63,958 nt of DNA from Thermoanaerobaculum sp. (GTDB lineage: Bacteria; Acidobacteriota; Thermoanaerobaculia; Multivoradales; UBA5704), in assembly GCA_021154885.1 (NCBI GenBank), contig JAJKHS010000016.1, positions 1 to 63,958 of the forward strand, in the 5' to 3' direction. The translations under genes were made by a program, and so were the position numbers. Under the pieces are notes generated by a model. That model ran no database searches and was not told the origin of the DNA. It saw nothing but the letters and a program-made list of their open reading frames with translations. Positions 20,625-63,134 of this stretch are shown piece by piece. Every line of letters begins with the position of its first letter. The first letter of the stretch is position 1.

Positions 20625-22685
20625 ATGCGCCGACTGCTTCTCGTCCTCGCTCTGCTCGCCCTTGCGGCCCCCGTCATCGCGGCGGAGCCCCATCCGTTCA
20701 CCGTCCATGACCTGCTCGCCATGGAGAGGATCAGCGACCCCGAGCCTTCGCCCCAGGGTGACAAGGTGGCGTTCGAGCTCCGCACCACGGACCTGGAAGC
20801 CAACAAGGGGCGGTTCGATCTCTGGGTGGTCAACACAGATGGTTCCGGCCTCACCCGTCTGACCTCCGATCCGGCCGCGGACAACAACCCGCGCTGGGCG
20901 CCGGACGGCAAGAGCCTCTACTTCCTCTCCACCCGCTCGGGATCGAGCCAGGTCTGGCGGCTGCCCGTGGGCGGCGGCGATCCGATCCAGATCACCAAGT
21001 CGCCGCTCGACGTGTCGAACCTTACCGTCTCGCCCGACGGCTCGCGCCTCGCCTTCAGCCTCGACGTCTTCGTCGACTGTCCGACTCTGGCCTGCACCAG
21101 GGAGCGGCTGGACGCACAGGCGAAAAAGAAGTCGAGCGGCCAGATCTATCAGGGCGGAGTCGGCTTCTTCCGCCACTGGGATACCTGGAGCGACGGCCGC
21201 CGCTCCCATCTGTTCGTCCTGCCCGTGGCTGGCGGCGATCCGGTGGACGTCTCCCACGGGCTGAACGCGGACACCCCCTCCAAGCCCTTCGGCGGTACTG
21301 AGGAGTACGCCTTTTCACCGGACGGCCGCTCCATCGTCTTCGCCGCCCGGAACGTGGGTGCGGAGGAGCCCTGGTCCACCAACCTCGACCTCTTCCTGGC
21401 GCCGGTGGATGGCTCGCAGCCGCCCCGCAACCTGACCGCCGCCAACCTCGCCACAGACACCCAGCCGGTCTTCTCGCCGGACGGCAAGACGCTGGCCTGG
21501 CTCGCCATGACCCGCCCCGGCTTCGAGGCCGACCGGCTGCGCATCAAGCTGCTGGATCTTGCGAGCGGCCGCGAGCGGGTGCTGGCCGAGGCCTGGGATC
21601 GCTCGCCGGACGGCCTCCAGTTCTCGCCCGACGGCCGCACCCTCTACGCCACGGCGGAGGACGTGGGCCAGGTGCCGCTGTTCGCCCTCGACGTGGCCAC
21701 CGGAAAAGTCACCAAGCTGGTGGCTCAGGGGCACGTGCGAACTCCCAAGCTGGCGGGCGACCGCATCGTCTTCGGCCGCGACGACCTGCGCGGGCCCGTG
21801 GAGCTTTACACGGTGCACCGCGACGGCACGGGCCTGTCCCAGATCACCCACGTCAACGCCGGCCGCGTGGCGGCGGCACGGATGGGGGAGCCCGAGCAGT
21901 TCTCGTTCCAAGGGGCGGGCGGCGACACCGTCTACGGCTGGGCCGTCAAGCCCGCGGGTTTCGAGCCGGGTAAGAAGTATCCCCTGGCCTTCCTCATCCA
22001 TGGTGGCCCTCAGGGCTCTTTCAACAACGAGTTTCACTACCGCTGGAACGCTCAGGCTTACGCCGGGGCCGGATACGGCGTGGTACTGATCGACTTCCAC
22101 GGCTCCACGGGCTATGGCCAGGCGTTCACCGATGCCATCCGCATGGACTGGGGGGACAAACCCCTGATCGACCTGCAGAAGGGGCTGGAGGCCGCCGTCG
22201 CCCGCTATCCCTGGATCGACGGCGACCGGGCGTGCGCCCTCGGCGCCTCCTACGGCGGCTACATGATCAACTGGATCGCCGGCAACTGGCCGGACCGCTT
22301 CCGCTGCCTGGTGGTCCATGATGGCATTTTCGATCAGCGGATGATGTACTACGGCACCGAAGAGCTCTGGTTCCCGGAGTGGGAGAATGGCGGTCCATAC
22401 TGGCAGAGCGCCGCCAACTACGAGAAGTACAACCCGGCGAGCTTCGTCGAGCGCTGGAAGACCCCGACGCTGGTCGTTCATGGCGGCCTCGACTACCGCG
22501 TGCCGGACAACCAGGGGATCGCCACCTTCACGACCCTCCAACGCCGGGGCATCCCCAGCCAGTTCCTCTACTTTCCCGACGAGAACCACTGGGTGCTCAA
22601 GCCGGCCAACAGCCTCCTCTGGCACGACACCGTCCTCTCCTGGCTCGACCGCTGGCTGAAGCCTGGAGCTGCCGCTTCCCGCTAG
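20625..22685 (+). CDS. Secreted S9 family dipeptidyl-peptidase-like protease
   Basis: 686 residues with a signal peptide ending 'APVIAAEP'. A seven-bladed propeller is seen as repeated 'SPDGxxLxF' WD40-like units between about 50 and 440, followed by a C-terminal alpha/beta-hydrolase. Catalytic triad: Ser542 in G-A-S-Y-G-G-Y, Asp623 in 'HGGLDYRVP', His655 in 'ENHWVL'. This matches DPP5/acylaminoacyl-peptidase-type S9C enzymes that trim dipeptides in the periplasm. The start ATG at 20625 has CAGGAG upstream; the much longer open frame before it is a shadow of the antisense gene. Confidence 0.93.
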   Translation: MRRLLLVLALLALAAPVIAAEPHPFTVHDLLAMERISDPEPSPQGDKVAFELRTTDLEANKGRFDLWVVNTDGSGLTRLTSDPAADNNPRWAPDGKSLYFLSTRSGSSQVWRLPVGGGDPIQITKSPLDVSNLTVSPDGSRLAFSLDVFVDCPTLACTRERLDAQAKKKSSGQIYQGGVGFFRHWDTWSDGRRSHLFVLPVAGGDPVDVSHGLNADTPSKPFGGTEEYAFSPDGRSIVFAARNVGAEEPWSTNLDLFLAPVDGSQPPRNLTAANLATDTQPVFSPDGKTLAWLAMTRPGFEADRLRIKLLDLASGRERVLAEAWDRSPDGLQFSPDGRTLYATAEDVGQVPLFALDVATGKVTKLVAQGHVRTPKLAGDRIVFGRDDLRGPVELYTVHRDGTGLSQITHVNAGRVAAARMGEPEQFSFQGAGGDTVYGWAVKPAGFEPGKKYPLAFLIHGGPQGSFNNEFHYRWNAQAYAGAGYGVVLIDFHGSTGYGQAFTDAIRMDWGDKPLIDLQKGLEAAVARYPWIDGDRACALGASYGGYMINWIAGNWPDRFRCLVVHDGIFDQRMMYYGTEELWFPEWENGGPYWQSAANYEKYNPASFVERWKTPTLVVHGGLDYRVPDNQGIATFTTLQRRGIPSQFLYFPDENHWVLKPANSLLWHDTVLSWLDRWLKPGAAASR

Positions 22686-22772: not shown

Positions 22773-22817
22773 TGAAACGACGGCCGTTTCAACAAAGTTC
22801 GGGACTTTTGTCCCGAA
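22773..22817. repeat. Two consecutive inverted repeats upstream of the SPASM-like gene
   Basis: First: TGAAACG (22773-22779) / CGTTTCA (22785-22791), 5-nt loop. Second: TTCGGGAC (22798-22805) / GTCCCGAA (22810-22817), loop TTTT. Both perfect. They lie about 110-150 bp before the ATG at 22926, in an A/T-richer stretch, and could be operators or attenuator stems. Confidence 0.6.
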
Positions 22818-22925
22818 AACCGGCCCAGCGGAAACGAAGGTATTAGAGGCGAAATGGTTCGGCTGTTCCGGACACCCGATCGTGGGTGGGAGGCCGAGCC
22901 ATCGCCGGCATCAAGGAGGACGAGT

Positions 22926-24320
22926 ATGTTCCCCGTCACCGCCATGCCAATGCCCGGAGCCCTGCGGCTGCGAGCCCTGCATCCCCTCATCGAGGGGGAT
23001 GGTTCCTGCGGCTTGATCTATGACCTGGAGAGGGGGGCGGTGGTGGAGGTGCCGGAAGAGCTGCAATTCCACATTGCGCCGGCGCTGGAGATGGGGGACT
23101 TGGACGAGACCGTTCTCGGCTGGCTTGCCAATGAAGACCTGCTGACCAGCGAAGGGGGAGCGGGCTGGAACGCCCTCTCCGAGGGAGGGGGGGCGCTGGA
23201 GCTCACCGGAGGCTGGAGCGTGGGAGCGATCTACCGCGTGGACGACGAGCTCCACGCCCGTATCGAGCAGGCCCGGGAGGAGGCTGCCCTGGAGATCATC
23301 GGGTTCGTGCTGCAGCAGAGCGCCGGCGCCAGCCGCGTCAAGCTCCATCTGAGTTGGGACGGAGCGTTCCCGGGGAGCGGCGTGCTCGAGCGGATCGTGG
23401 TCGAAGCCTCCCGCCAGGCGCCCCCGCACCAGGAGATCGCCTTCGAGCTGACTCTCGGCGCGCGCGAGGTGACGCCCGCCGTGGCCGACATCCTCGCCGG
23501 GCTCTCCCTCCAGGTGCGGCTGCTCTGCGGCAGCTACCCGGCGCGGACCGAGGGCTTCTACGCCGATCGCCGCATCCCGGCCTGGAGGGCCGAGCCGGCG
23601 GTGCGCCTGCTGTTGGACAGGCTGGGCGAGCGGCTGACGGTTCACTGCATTCTGGACCAGGGTCGGCTCCTCGACGTCTGGGAATGGGCAAAACGGACCG
23701 GCATCCGCCACCTGGACACCACCATCCTGGAGGACTCGGCCGTGGGCGACGGGGCCGAGCGCCCGGGCCGGCTGCGCGAGACCCGGAACGATCTGCTGGC
23801 GGTTTGCGACGAGATGGGCGACGCTCTCACCGCCCAGAGCCTGCCGGTGGACTTCAAACCCCTGACCCGGATCGTCGACCGGCTGATGCGCAGCGAACCG
23901 CTCGATCGCCTCTACGGCGAGCGCGGCAGCTTTGGCGGGCTGATGCCCATGGCGGACGTATATCCCCGCTCCTTCCTGGATCGTCTGGACATTCGCCGCA
24001 CCCCGAGCCTCTGGGGCGAGGAGGACGTGGAGGGGGCCGGTGGCGATGCCGACTTTCCCTGCCAGGGGTGCTGGGCTCGTCACGTGTGCAGCCACAGCAC
24101 CTACGTGGCCGCCTCTCAGGAAGGGGAGGATCTCCGCGACCCGTCGGAGGAGCGCTGCACGCTCTGGCGGACGGAGGTCGAGGCGGCCCTCCGCTTCTAC
24201 CATCGCCTGGCGCACGCGGATCCTCTGCAGGTCCGCCGTTTCTTCGATGACTCGTCTCGCGAGCCGGGCCCCGCCCTGGTCCGGCGCGAGGACCTCGATC
24301 ACCTGAGGATGCCATTCTGA
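22926..24320 (+). CDS. Radical-SAM/SPASM maturase-like protein lacking the CxxxCxxC cluster (probable pseudoenzyme)
   Basis: 464 residues from ATG 22926, with AAGGAGG seven bases upstream. Three parts are seen. An N-terminal segment (1-75, 'DGSCGLIYDLERGAVVEVPEE') is like the leader-binding front end of peptide maturases. A TIM-barrel-like middle has the helix-strand cadence of radical SAM enzymes ('EEAALEIIGFVLQQSAGAS', 'IAFELTLGAREVTPAVADIL'). A C-terminal SPASM-like cysteine set follows: C379-x2-C382-x5-C388 and C411 in 'CQGCWARHVC' and 'ERCTLW'. Where the cluster motif should be, only 'GGWSVGAIYRVDDELHARI' is found, GGEP is replaced by 'SWDGA', and the SPASM 'GGGC' by 'SHST'. So SAM/4Fe-4S chemistry is unlikely. 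No precursor or maturase gene lies beside it. Confidence 0.75.
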   Translation: MFPVTAMPMPGALRLRALHPLIEGDGSCGLIYDLERGAVVEVPEELQFHIAPALEMGDLDETVLGWLANEDLLTSEGGAGWNALSEGGGALELTGGWSVGAIYRVDDELHARIEQAREEAALEIIGFVLQQSAGASRVKLHLSWDGAFPGSGVLERIVVEASRQAPPHQEIAFELTLGAREVTPAVADILAGLSLQVRLLCGSYPARTEGFYADRRIPAWRAEPAVRLLLDRLGERLTVHCILDQGRLLDVWEWAKRTGIRHLDTTILEDSAVGDGAERPGRLRETRNDLLAVCDEMGDALTAQSLPVDFKPLTRIVDRLMRSEPLDRLYGERGSFGGLMPMADVYPRSFLDRLDIRRTPSLWGEEDVEGAGGDADFPCQGCWARHVCSHSTYVAASQEGEDLRDPSEERCTLWRTEVEAALRFYHRLAHADPLQVRRFFDDSSREPGPALVRREDLDHLRMPF

Positions 24321-27139: not shown

Positions 27140-27808
27140 ATGCTTCGCTTCGTCGTCGCCCTCCAGGCGGAGGCCCGCGCATTGATCGAAAGGTTCGGCA
27201 TGGAGCCGGCCGGCGAGGGTCCATTCTCCATCTACCGCGGAGAGGATGCGTGGCTGATCGTCTCCGGTCCGGGCAAGGCCGCGGCCGCGGCCGCCACGGC
27301 CTACCTCCACCTCTTCTCCGGCGGCGAGTTGGGGCGGGCGTGGCTCAACGTCGGCCTCGGTGGGCACCGCGCGCGCCCGGTGGGCGAAGGCGTCATCGCT
27401 CACAAGATCTCCGACGGCGCGAGCGGCGCCTCCTGGTATCCCCAACTCGTGGTCGACAGCCCCCGGCCCACAGTCGCGGTGCTCACGCTGGAGCGGGTGG
27501 AAGAGGAGTACTCGCTGCCATGGGTGTACGACAGCGAGGCGGCGGGGTTCTTTCCCACTGCCTGCCGGTTCTCCGTCGCCGAGCTGGTGCACTGCTTCAA
27601 GGTAGTCTCCGACAACGCCGACGCCACCCTCTCGCGGCGGATGTCCAGCACTTTCCTCGAGCACCTGATCGCCCGCAACCTCGGCGACCTGGAGACCTTC
27701 GCCCGCGACTTGGCCGCTCTGGCGGAGGAGCTCGCGGCGTGGGCCGCCGCCCGTCATCCCATCCGGCTGCCCGCGCCCGAAGGAAACACCGCCGATGATC
27801 TACGTTGA
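27140..27808 (+). CDS. MTA/SAH-nucleosidase-like phosphorylase-superfamily protein
   Basis: 222 residues. The nucleoside-phosphorylase-like fold shows as 'VVALQAEARALIERFGM', 'GPGKAAAAAATAYL', the invariant glycine strand 'WLNVGLGGHRARPVGEG', a purine-binding 'VYDSEAAGFFPTACRF' and 'FKVVSDN' with the catalytic-type Asp. MTAN family enzymes split S-adenosylhomocysteine or 5'-deoxyadenosine. Its last 14 bases overlap the radical SAM gene, which makes removal of 5'-deoxyadenosine a plausible job; that is inference. Confidence 0.8.
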   Translation: MLRFVVALQAEARALIERFGMEPAGEGPFSIYRGEDAWLIVSGPGKAAAAAATAYLHLFSGGELGRAWLNVGLGGHRARPVGEGVIAHKISDGASGASWYPQLVVDSPRPTVAVLTLERVEEEYSLPWVYDSEAAGFFPTACRFSVAELVHCFKVVSDNADATLSRRMSSTFLEHLIARNLGDLETFARDLAALAEELAAWAAARHPIRLPAPEGNTADDLR

Positions 27809-28829
27809 AGAAGAGATCCTGAACCATCCGCGGACGCTCGCGATCCAGAGCCGTTTCCCGGATGCCGAGGTGGTCCCCTGCGCACGCTACGGCGAGATCT
27901 TCAATCGCCGCGCCCAGCACTTCCGGCTGCAGAAGCGCCGGCCGTCGCTCATCCTGGCGAAGAAGCATCGCAACTTCGTGCACGACGCCCCGGAGGGGTT
28001 CGGGCTCGCGGGGGCGCGGAGCTTCCTCTTCGATCCCATGCTCAACTGCATCTACGACTGTCGCTACTGCTACCTTCAGGGGATGTTCCGGTCGGCCCAC
28101 TACGTGGTGTTCGTCAATTACGAGGACTACCAGTGGGCGATCGAGGAGAAGATCCGGGCTCTCCCCGGAGAGGAATTGTGGTTCTTCTCCGGCTACGAAT
28201 GCGACAGCCTGGCTCTCGAGCCGGTGACGCGGCTTGCTGCCAGCTTCGTCCCCTTCTTCTCCCGGTTCCCGCAGGCGAACCTGGAGCTGCGCACCAAGAG
28301 CACGCAGATCAAGTCGCTGCTGGACATGGAGGCGGTGCCCAACGTGGTGGTGGCTTTCAGCTTCACGCCCGAGGAGGTGCAGGCGGCCCACGAGCACGAA
28401 ACGCCATCGGTCGACCGCCGCATCCGGGCGATGGAGCGCCTGCAGGAGCGGGGCTGGCGGCTGGGTCTGCGCTTCGATCCCCTAGTCTACGGCGAGGGCT
28501 ACCGCGAGCAGTACCGCCGCCTTTACGAGCAGGTGTTCGGCGCCGTGCGGGTCGATAGTCTCCACTCGGTGAGCCTCGGCCCGTTCCGCCTGGCGGGGGA
28601 CGCCTTCAAGGCCATGGTCCGCCTCTATCCCGAGGACGTCCTGTTCGCCGGGCCGCTGGCGGAGGAGAATGGCCGAGTGGCCTACCGGCGCGAACTCGAG
28701 GAGGAGATGGTGGAGTTCTGCACCGGAGAGCTGCTGCGCCACGTGCCGCAGGAGATCTTCTTCCCGGGCTTGAGCGTGGCGCCCGCGACGCCGGCTGCCG
28801 CGCATTCCGACAGCGGGCCGGCGTCGTAG
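27795..28829 (+). CDS. Spore photoproduct lyase family radical SAM protein
   Basis: 344 residues. The 4Fe-4S motif C-x3-C-x2-C is present as 'NCIYDCRYCYLQG', followed by the SPL-family 'YVVFVNYEDY', 'FFSGYECDSLALEP' and 'LELRTKSTQIKSLL'. SPL repairs the 5-thyminyl-5,6-dihydrothymine dimer in spores; in non-sporulating bacteria this subfamily has unproven targets. Here it is coupled to the upstream nucleosidase-like gene. No spore genes occur in the window. Confidence 0.9.
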   Translation: MIYVEEEILNHPRTLAIQSRFPDAEVVPCARYGEIFNRRAQHFRLQKRRPSLILAKKHRNFVHDAPEGFGLAGARSFLFDPMLNCIYDCRYCYLQGMFRSAHYVVFVNYEDYQWAIEEKIRALPGEELWFFSGYECDSLALEPVTRLAASFVPFFSRFPQANLELRTKSTQIKSLLDMEAVPNVVVAFSFTPEEVQAAHEHETPSVDRRIRAMERLQERGWRLGLRFDPLVYGEGYREQYRRLYEQVFGAVRVDSLHSVSLGPFRLAGDAFKAMVRLYPEDVLFAGPLAEENGRVAYRRELEEEMVEFCTGELLRHVPQEIFFPGLSVAPATPAAAHSDSGPAS

Positions 28830-40044: not shown

Positions 40045-40236
40045 ATGCGAAAGAACCGAAAGAGGCTCGTGCTCAACAAGGAGACCGTGGCGGTCCTCTC
40101 CGATCCGAAGCTCTTAGGTGTCCACGGCGGAGGGCCAACCCCCGGTTATGGGGAATGCCTGACCGACCGGTGCAGCGTCGCCTATTGCTTTACCACCGGG
40201 CCCACCTGTCAGCCAGATAATAGAGACTCGTCATAG
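40045..40236 (+). CDS. Class-I-lanthipeptide-like / GG-leader precursor peptide 1
   Basis: 63 residues from ATG 40045 (AGGAGG four bases upstream; ATG 40041 touches the ribosome-binding site and is rejected). The leader 'RLVLNKETVAVLSDPKLLGV' ends in H-G-G-G, the 'LNKETV..L' plus GG pattern of class I lanthipeptide/'natural product precursor' leaders. The core (from about residue 30) has four Cys (38, 43, 48, 55) plus Ser/Thr, e.g. 'ECLTDRCSVAYCFTTGPTC'. It would be a substrate for a maturase and a GG-cleaving exporter, neither of which is in the neighbourhood. It is related to the peptide at 62928. Local base composition is lower in GC than the flanking genes. Confidence 0.75.
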   Translation: MRKNRKRLVLNKETVAVLSDPKLLGVHGGGPTPGYGECLTDRCSVAYCFTTGPTCQPDNRDSS

Positions 40237-60158: not shown

Positions 60159-60288
60159 GCGGTCTTAAGGAGGGCGGAGCGGCGAGCACACGCTCAGGCT
60201 GCCGGCACACCTACCCGGCTCGTTGCTGGCGCCACGAAGCACTATTCAAGGTGTGGGCAACGCCATCTTGACTTCAAGGAGGGTTTCG

Positions 60289-60615
60289 ATGCGGAAGATC
60301 CGGATTTCCATCTTCGCTCTGACGGCTTTCACCGTGCTGGCCTTGGCCGCCTCCTCGGCTCAGGCTGGGGCGACCTGCAGTGCGAGCAAGCCCATCTGCA
60401 CGGCCTCGTTCCAGCCGGAGCCGGTCCTGATGTCGACTTGGACCTTCTGGGGGTGCTGGTCTCAATGGCCGGCCGGTCCTTGCCGCGACATCTTCCGGGA
60501 CAGCTCAGGCGCCTTTTGGATCTGCGCGAATTGCGGTCAGACCAAGAACCCTGGCCCAGGCACGTGCAACCAGATCGGCGCCCAGGCGCTGGACAGAGGG
60601 TACTGGTGCTCGTGA
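60289..60615 (+). CDS. Small secreted Cys/Trp-rich protein
   Basis: 108 residues with AAGGAGGG upstream of ATG 60289 and a signal peptide ending 'ASSAQAGA'. The mature part has eight Cys ('TCSASKPIC', 'WGCW', 'GPCRDIF', 'WICANCGQTKN', 'GTCNQ', 'YWCS') and several Trp. Likely a disulfide-rich exported protein; not recognised. Confidence 0.75.
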   Translation: MRKIRISIFALTAFTVLALAASSAQAGATCSASKPICTASFQPEPVLMSTWTFWGCWSQWPAGPCRDIFRDSSGAFWICANCGQTKNPGPGTCNQIGAQALDRGYWCS

Positions 60616-61498: not shown

Positions 61499-61840
61499 TC
61501 ACTCCCGATCCGCGGCCTGAGCGGCTTGCCACAGCTCGCCGTACTTCTCGCGTACGTAGGGATCGAGCTCCTCCGCGAGCCCGGCAGGGAGCTTGAGGAT
61601 GCGATGACCTCGATCACGTCGGCCAGATCCTTGAGCCGGTGTGGGGCGGTCATCCCCGAGGCCAGCTTCAGCTCGATCAGGAAGGGATGCCGTCCTCCTC
61701 CAGCAGGCGCGCCACCTTGTTGCGGGCGCGCTGAACCTTGGATTCTCCCATGAAGAATCTCTCCGCCTCTTCGATTCCCGCGTCAAGGCGGGCCTCAAGC
61801 TCCGGGTCCAGACGGGGACGGTTGCGCCCAGGCAGCCATG
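61499..61840 (-). pseudogene. Frameshifted nucleotidyltransferase/AbiEii-like gene remnant
   Basis: Three frames read in order give one protein: 'LEARLDAGIEEAERFFMGES' plus 'ARLLEEDGIP' (frame 1), 'LIELKLASGMTAPHRLKDLA' plus 'DVIEVI' (frame 2), then 'LKLPAGLAEELDPYVREKYG' plus 'ELWQAAQAADRE' (frame 3). Shifts fall near 61685 and 61610. The 'ELKLASGMTAPHRLKDLADV' and 'LDPYVREKYxELW' segments are typical of the C-terminus of sugar/nucleotidyltransferase-like AbiEii proteins. No intact copy is present. Confidence 0.7.
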
Positions 61841-61974
61841 GCGCTGGCCGCGATCGATCTCATGCGGTCAGGTTAGCAGAATCCTGGCCTCCCCGGCCGC
61901 ATCCGGGACCTCTCAGAGTCCAGATGGGTGTTTGTGCTACGCTCACCTCCGCCGTTTTCCTGAAAGGAGAGGAC

Positions 61975-62133
61975 ATGACACGTAAACTCGTCGTCGCCGC
62001 CTTCCTCCTCGCCCTCTGCTGGATGCCGAGCGCTACCGCGTCGCAGGGCGCGGCCTGCACAGCCCACGTCTGCAACATCTGCGCGCAAAGTGGGCTGGTT
62101 TGCGTGTCCACGCCGCACTGCCACTGCGAGTGA
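61975..62133 (+). CDS. Very small secreted Cys-rich peptide
   Basis: 52 residues from ATG 61975 with AAAGGAGAGG upstream. Signal peptide to about residue 23 ('LVVAAFLLALCWMPSATAS'), then a 26-29-residue mature peptide with six Cys ('ACTAHVCNICAQSGLVCVST' then 'PHCHCE'). The spacing would allow three disulfides or metal binding. Too short for database-style recognition; style resembles bacteriocin or defensin-like peptides. Confidence 0.65.
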   Translation: MTRKLVVAAFLLALCWMPSATASQGAACTAHVCNICAQSGLVCVSTPHCHCE

Positions 62134-62927: not shown

Positions 62928-63134
62928 ATGAGACGCAACCGTTCGGTCAAGAAATTGCAGCTCAACAAAGACACTCTTGCAAACCTGACTCAGCAGGACC
63001 TAGCATGGGTGAACGGTGGGGCAGAGACTCGGGCGTTTTCGGATTGCAGGTTTTGCTCGGTGGGTGGCGGGACCTCCTGCGTTTCGGATAGTAATTGTAC
63101 CGATCCAAGGGTCTGCGGCCCCTTCCCCATATAA
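62928..63134 (+). CDS. Class-I-lanthipeptide-like / GG-leader precursor peptide 2
   Basis: 68 residues from ATG 62928 (AGAGGAGG five bases upstream). The leader 'KKLQLNKDTLANLTQQDLAW' ends V-N-G-G, the same 'LxLNK[ED]T[VL]..L..GG' signature as the peptide at 40045. The core from residue 32 has five Cys (40, 43, 51, 57, 63) and several Ser/Thr ('SDCRFCSVGGGTSCVSDSNC'). No LanB/LanC, LanM, radical SAM maturase or peptidase-exporter is within view; decayed genes surround it. A hairpin at 63171 may end the message. Confidence 0.78.
   Translation: MRRNRSVKKLQLNKDTLANLTQQDLAWVNGGAETRAFSDCRFCSVGGGTSCVSDSNCTDPRVCGPFPI

Follow-up and report, generated by a model that had tools for sequence, protein, structure and literature searches.

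A family of SPASM maturase descent in the Thermoanaerobaculia that lacks the radical SAM cluster site

What use can a cell make of a protein with the build of a radical SAM/SPASM peptide maturase once the site of its catalytic cluster has gone? The question is raised by a gene in a 63,958-nucleotide stretch of Thermoanaerobaculum sp. DNA, referred to below as the window. The original prediction read the product as a SPASM maturase scaffold that had lost the radical SAM cluster and was kept as a functional pseudoenzyme, perhaps as a partner for GG-leader peptides encoded further along the window.

22926..24320, plus strand: pseudo-radical-SAM/SPASM protein (P0001), 464 aa; intact open reading frame, six-member family, dN/dS 0.27 against the orthologue in genome G089
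22913..22919, plus strand: ribosome-binding site AAGGAGG, read directly from the DNA, 6 nt 5' of the ATG

The intact frame and the good ribosome-binding site on which that reading partly relied are both present, the frame being open over all 464 codons and AAGGAGG standing 6 nt ahead of the ATG. A GGAGG is also found shortly 5' of the ATG in family members L002, L003, L004 and L006, and its position is poorer in L005. An upstream start at 22854 was discarded as unsupported, because the ATG at that point is ATA in G089. A Pfam search with the protein returned zero matches, and no solved structure matching it by sequence was found.

Orthologues are carried by 6 of 148 genomes of the class, probably Thermoanaerobaculia (Acidobacteriota), always at one and the same place, following an S9 peptidase gene; a search of these 148 genomes with the family alignment recovered the same six at E<=1e-150, with the next match at E 0.002. 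The protein shares 71, 70, 48, 31 and 27% identity with its five homologues, and the carriers fall into two families, f1 (four genomes) and f7 (two genomes). A contig search yielded three loci, all of which belong by position to the six known members. Across the phylum (396 genomes), a profile search matched 19 genomes at E<=0.01, among them two with family members; the remainder are mostly radical SAM/SPASM frames that keep the cluster motif and a full CX2CX5CX3C, together with a few weak partial matches, and the idea of a wider family was discarded on that ground. The carrier genomes are drafts with some 80 to 1250 contigs each, at least three of them metagenome-assembled, and a decaying pseudogene or an assembly artefact might be suspected for that reason. 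However, the gene recurs in six assemblies, in one conserved slot and with frames free of internal stops in all six members, and its dN/dS against the G089 orthologue (0.27 overall, Nei-Gojobori) is close to those of the flanking genes in the same pair of genomes, 0.30 for the S9 peptidase and 0.21 for a methyltransferase. Decay or artefact, whose chance we regard as negligible, was therefore discarded, the loss of the cluster site being moreover common to the six orthologues, and the claim that the protein is kept by selection is upheld.

The nearest relative by sequence is the radical SAM enzyme family QhpD. In NCBIfam, residues 372-441 match TIGR03906 (QhpD) with E 2.3e-5 and 23.2 bits, against a cut-off of 453 bits, and three of the six members match this model at E<=5. 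Profile-profile comparison of the family with nine QhpD enzymes from among the phylum-wide matches, which themselves score 552-596 bits for TIGR03906 (cut-off 453), gave a probability of 97.7% and E 2.5e-12 over columns 114-429, a likeness that on these sequence profiles exceeds chance. The barrel and the SPASM region are common to both; in contrast to QhpD, the family has neither the cluster motif nor an intact GGE, and does not keep the Aux I set of cysteines. The QhpC substrate model PF08992 matched none of the 148 genomes, and no positive control gave a match either.

The absence of CxxxCxxC from the protein was confirmed and extends to the looser pattern C-X(2-15)-C-X2-C. CxxxCxxC is missing from all six members. 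When they are aligned jointly with seven true QhpD enzymes, every member is gapped where the first two cluster cysteines stand in QhpD, and has a gap or a residue other than cysteine at the third. The GGE motif, rightly described as changed, reads WDG in the protein, and no member has it intact (WDG, WGG, WGG, WPE, CGQ, AAG), its glutamate column being retained by L004 alone. The GGC of the SPASM region, for which a change had also been claimed, is HST in the same joint alignment. None of the members matches the radical SAM model PF04055 at E<=5; two QhpD enzymes used as a control score 56-64 bits. The cysteines of the protein before residue 300 are scattered, at positions 28, 201, 241 and 294. 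The original prediction had allowed that homologues might universally contain CxxxCxxC and that this might be one decayed copy; all six homologues are without it, and the loss of the cluster site is common to the whole family. As a side observation, C28, in the N-terminal domain, is the only cysteine before residue 300 that is present in all six members, unlike the SPASM cysteines.

The former catalytic part of the protein is nevertheless recognisable in predicted structures.

23226..23891, plus strand: radical-SAM-type barrel without cluster loop, aa 101-322; AlphaFold2 models, PDB matches, gapped cluster-loop columns, dN/dS 0.41

Of two AlphaFold2 models, one was built only on the six family members; the alignment behind the second also included true enzymes, and this model is the less independent. 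Mean pLDDT is about 63-66 over both (62.7 for the own-family model, in which the N-terminal domain and the barrel are fair to good), with most of residues 324-406 below 50 (323-406 in the own-family model). The best PDB match of the own-family model is CteB (5why_A, Z 18.7, 321 residues aligned at 4.7 A; 5wgg_A, Z 18.5), followed by anSME (Z 15.5), ChlB (13.8) and TigE (13.2), the next family being Elp3 (11.1). Foldseek likewise ranks CteB first, and the enzyme-supplemented model leaves the top PDB families unchanged. The partial TIM-barrel fold of the radical SAM superfamily is thus predicted to be present, in agreement with the maturase scaffold and radical SAM-like barrel that had been proposed. 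CteB (5WGG/5WHY), a maturase of the sactipeptide thioether type, is the nearest solved fold, with an alignment over model residues 4-427; identity over the aligned part is 14%, and CteB is an active radical SAM enzyme.

Could the family still be enzymatic, using SAM (as a radical SAM protein or in some other way) with a cluster motif that departs from the standard? Some radical SAM proteins do have other cysteine spacings, the barrel is retained in the model and L004 has its glutamate in the GGE column. We nonetheless hold this to be very improbable, with the cluster-loop columns gapped and GGE broken in all six members, the cysteines before residue 300 scattered and PF04055 matching none.

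More of the auxiliary cluster apparatus has survived.

24054..24215, plus strand: remnant SPASM region, aa 377-430, with C379, C382, C388 and C411 in auxiliary-II positions; motifs, QhpD alignment, PMC5491770/PMC5715301

The two cysteine motifs quoted in support of a partial SPASM set are real, CQGCWARHVC occupying aa 379-388 and ERCTLW containing C411. The anSME literature gives C317, C320, C326 and C348 as ligands of Aux II and C255, C261, C276 and C330 as ligands of Aux I (PMC5491770; the SPASM ligand assignment is also taken from PMC5715301), and it is to the Aux II ligands that C379-X2-C382-X5-C388 and C411 align. CX2CX5C and the last cysteine are kept in five of the six members, CX2CX5CX3C in none, and the seven-cysteine motif CX9-15GX4C-Xn-CX2CX5CX3C-Xn-C is absent from the family. 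The partial set therefore stands for Aux II in these five members and fails in the sixth, L005 (G060), which has lost all four SPASM cysteines, so that the cluster would be dispensable in some members. At the Aux I site, the columns of the QhpD PCGAG motif are gaps in the joint alignment and the column of the ALCHRF cysteine holds no cysteine in any member. One or two further cysteines of L002 and L003 lie two columns off an Aux I column, so that a second cluster site is conceivable, if unlikely, in these two.

Twitch domains, the truncated form of SPASM, hold a single cluster at a site of the Aux I type, and the family resembles them in that its SPASM region is likewise reduced towards a single auxiliary cluster. 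The Twitch domain is described as being without CX2CX5CX3C (PMC5715301), and the family, which keeps CX2CX5C...C in five of six members and has lost the other site, accordingly looks like the reverse case.

The best-conserved part of the protein lies at the other end.

22953..23156, plus strand: N-terminal domain, aa 10-77, possibly a degenerate leader-binding (RRE/PqqD-like) domain; conservation, dN/dS 0.07, pLDDT

Here the protein is 90, 90, 72, 60 and 35% identical to its five homologues, compared with 70, 70, 45, 24 and 26% in the barrel and 80, 74, 57, 21 and 30% in the SPASM remnant. Both models predict strands followed by two helices, with pLDDT in blocks over residues 11-70 of 77-90 (enzyme-supplemented model) and 63-87 (own-family model). 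This order of strands and helices, and the CteB structural alignment that begins at model residue 4, are suggestive, though only that, of an RRE/PqqD domain. The leader-binding character ascribed to the region could not be established: the Pfam PqqD model matched none of the six members, and comparison with the QhpD N-terminus by hhalign gave a probability of 0.3%, on a shallow alignment. A search for the domain on other proteins gave 17 weak rows outside the family, the best at E 0.0046 within a frame of 3345 aa; five of these 17 frames were inspected and hold nothing related to it, and the candidates were rejected.

The regional dN/dS values against G089 follow the same order, 0.07 for the N-terminal domain, 0.16 for the SPASM remnant and 0.41 for the barrel. 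They come from 54-222 codons each, with uneven dS (0.50-0.99) and from a single genome pair, and therefore give a direction and not exact values; read in this manner, selection seems to bear less on the former catalytic barrel than on the cysteines and the presumed binding domain.

One reading of this pattern centres on the cysteines and makes the protein a single-cluster Fe-S electron carrier of the Aux II type, a redox partner for another enzyme and not a peptide binder. It draws on the Aux II positions kept in five of six members, on the dN/dS of 0.16 around them and on the suggestion, made in PMC5715301, that Aux II is an electron route to the surface in SPASM enzymes; another paper calls the role of Aux II unclear (PMC9012708). 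We consider an electron carrier quite unlikely, as L005 has dispensed with these cysteines and the strongest constraint falls on the N-terminal domain (0.07).

In these computations the family thus shows maturase ancestry in its fold; its members consistently lack the cluster loop as well as an intact GGE, and a persisting purifying selection is strongest at the N-terminus and in the SPASM remnant. Since this selection weighs most heavily on the N-terminal domain, the protein probably acts as a helper that binds peptides and not as an enzyme, and we favour, at roughly even odds (about 0.5), a catalytically dead radical SAM/SPASM maturase that has been retained to serve as a peptide-binding adaptor and that would contain one cluster in most members. 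The catalytic cluster site of a radical SAM/SPASM maturase ancestor would have disappeared, in the simplest case before f1 and f7 separated, and the protein would have been retained without a catalytic role. RRE domains of SPASM maturases bind peptide, and by analogy the N-terminal domain may still do so. The barrel would serve as a scaffold, and CX2CX5C...C may hold one auxiliary-II-type [4Fe-4S] cluster in most members, in a structural or electron-carrying role. Such a protein would act on a precursor peptide destined for another enzyme, by delivering, shielding or holding it, and would carry out no SAM chemistry itself; the peptides served might, at a guess, be precursors with L1a leaders of the lanthipeptide type.

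Does the genomic setting point to a client or a partner?

20625..22685, plus strand: S9 peptidase (Dpp5-like), directly 5' of the P0001 gene; NF053518 at 526 bits, below the 900-bit cut-off

An S9 peptidase is the upstream neighbour in all six loci. Among the 148 genomes, 130 have this peptidase at E<=1e-100, and 124 of these are without a P0001 orthologue; the peptidase is nearly universal, and the pairing therefore reflects a common location more than a partnership. Diverged members were looked for behind S9 peptidases in 30 loci (5 from carriers, 25 from the 124 non-carriers) and none was found, three of the 25 non-carrier loci (L098, L120 and L121) having hardly any downstream sequence. 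In two f4 loci (L106 and L110) a nucleosidase-like gene lies about 0.9 kb after the S9 peptidase, with no pseudoenzyme match in between.

The setting bears on a further explanation, in which the scaffold has been repurposed away from modified peptides, with a new binding site in the barrel and a regulatory or redox-sensing role that may be connected with the S9 locus. The motif R247-L248-x-D250-x-W252, invariant in the six members and located where the helix that follows strand 237-243 begins, would suit a new site of this kind, and the constant S9 peptidase neighbour, the lack of any recognised RiPP gene beside the gene and the f7 carriers without L1a leaders speak in the same direction. Yet 124 of the 130 genomes with the peptidase do without an orthologue, the N-terminus of the peptidase resembles a signal peptide by eye and the enzyme looks exported, which P0001 does not, and the barrel is under less constraint (0.41) than either of the other two parts measured. 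We regard such a repurposing as possible but rather doubtful.

For the peptide-binding adaptor, the candidate clients in the window are the two GG-leader precursors.

40045..40236, plus strand: GG-leader precursor 1 (class I lanthipeptide leader L1a); NF038153 at 25.6 bits, cut-off 22
62928..63134, plus strand: GG-leader precursor 2 (class I lanthipeptide leader L1a); NF038153 at 32.4 bits, cut-off 22

They are located 16 kb and 39 kb from the P0001 gene and belong to a family scattered over the source genome, in which 23 contigs together carry 34 NF038153 matches at E<=0.1; 22 of the matches exceed the cut-off. These precursors have a leader of the form MKKxxKKLxLxRETLRxL...GG and a Cys-rich core; scattered L1a precursors are reminiscent of prochlorosins, though with a class I leader. 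L1a leaders occur in 12 of the 148 genomes (10 over the cut-off), with 34, 37, 20 and 8 matches in the four f1 genomes and 1-7 in the other eight, all eight without a P0001 orthologue. All four f1 genomes carry the pseudoenzyme, and as one family they may represent a single event; the two f7 carriers have no L1a match, and none was found on the carrier contigs (8-34 kb) of G089, G090 and G091. The proposed link to precursors 1 and 2 is consequently not established and, there being no adjoining precursor and none in the f7 carriers, binding of L1a GG-leaders by the protein is rated as possible only.

Genes of the LanB family (PF04738) are present in 23 of the 148 genomes, among them all six carriers. 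In the source genome they lie on contigs C1, C75 and C83, of which C1 and C75 also have leader matches. In G086, six of seven L1a matches cluster just 5' of a LanB gene on C255 and one lies near another LanB on C240, an ordinary arrangement unlike that of the f1 genomes. A bolder form of the adaptor reading, which we think unlikely, would make the protein an inverse Twitch with Aux II only, serving in trans as a leader-binding hub for the scattered class I lanthipeptide-type precursors and feeding a few LanB enzymes.

By its sequence the protein is not classed here with the radical SAM enzymes, the complete SPASM domains, QhpD or the Twitch proteins, because one defining feature of each is missing. 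GeoRSP and grasp-with-spasm are NCBIfam names for SPASM proteins, some of which may lack the radical SAM domain, and partial precedents are possible there; at E<=5 none of the six members has an NCBIfam match under either name, and no relevant paper on them was found among the literature matches listed. In a limited search, a conserved radical SAM/SPASM protein without the cluster was likewise undescribed in the titles and abstract openings of the open-licence matches listed. For the proposed role, PqqD and stand-alone RRE proteins offer an analogy, as they too would bind a precursor for another enzyme; the presumed binder described here differs in keeping a whole dead maturase behind it and in having no PqqD match. 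The thuricin CD maturases TrnC and TrnD are reported to be SPASM proteins that form a complex with RRE-RRE contact, in which only the radical SAM activity of TrnC is strictly essential, and they provide an earlier example of a SPASM protein that is required as one half of a complex (PMC12093266). TrnD, however, is still an active radical SAM protein, whereas the family has lost its catalytic site and has no known active partner. If the adaptor reading were confirmed, the family would allow one to ask what a SPASM scaffold with Aux II does without SAM chemistry, and it would bear on whether maturase scaffolds evolve into peptide carriers.

The gene may be under a control of its own.

22806..22857, plus strand: conserved upstream stretch; 24-nt core at 22830-22853 identical in three genomes of the genus

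This stretch is probably the gene's own promoter or regulatory element, to judge from its conservation, and it counts in favour of the adaptor reading. A genome-wide search for the 24-nt core that tolerated up to 3 mismatches gave a single site, and a regulon shared through it was discarded on account of this single occurrence. A perfect inverted repeat, CGGGAC-TTTT-GTCCCG, lies at 22800-22815, its left arm being imperfect in the sister genomes. Elsewhere in the window, a radical SAM gene resembling spore photoproduct lyase (27795-28829; PF04055 below cut-off) overlaps the end of a nucleosidase-like gene (27140-27808), and two short frames, at 60223-60615 and 61738-62133, resemble by eye secreted Cys-rich small proteins.
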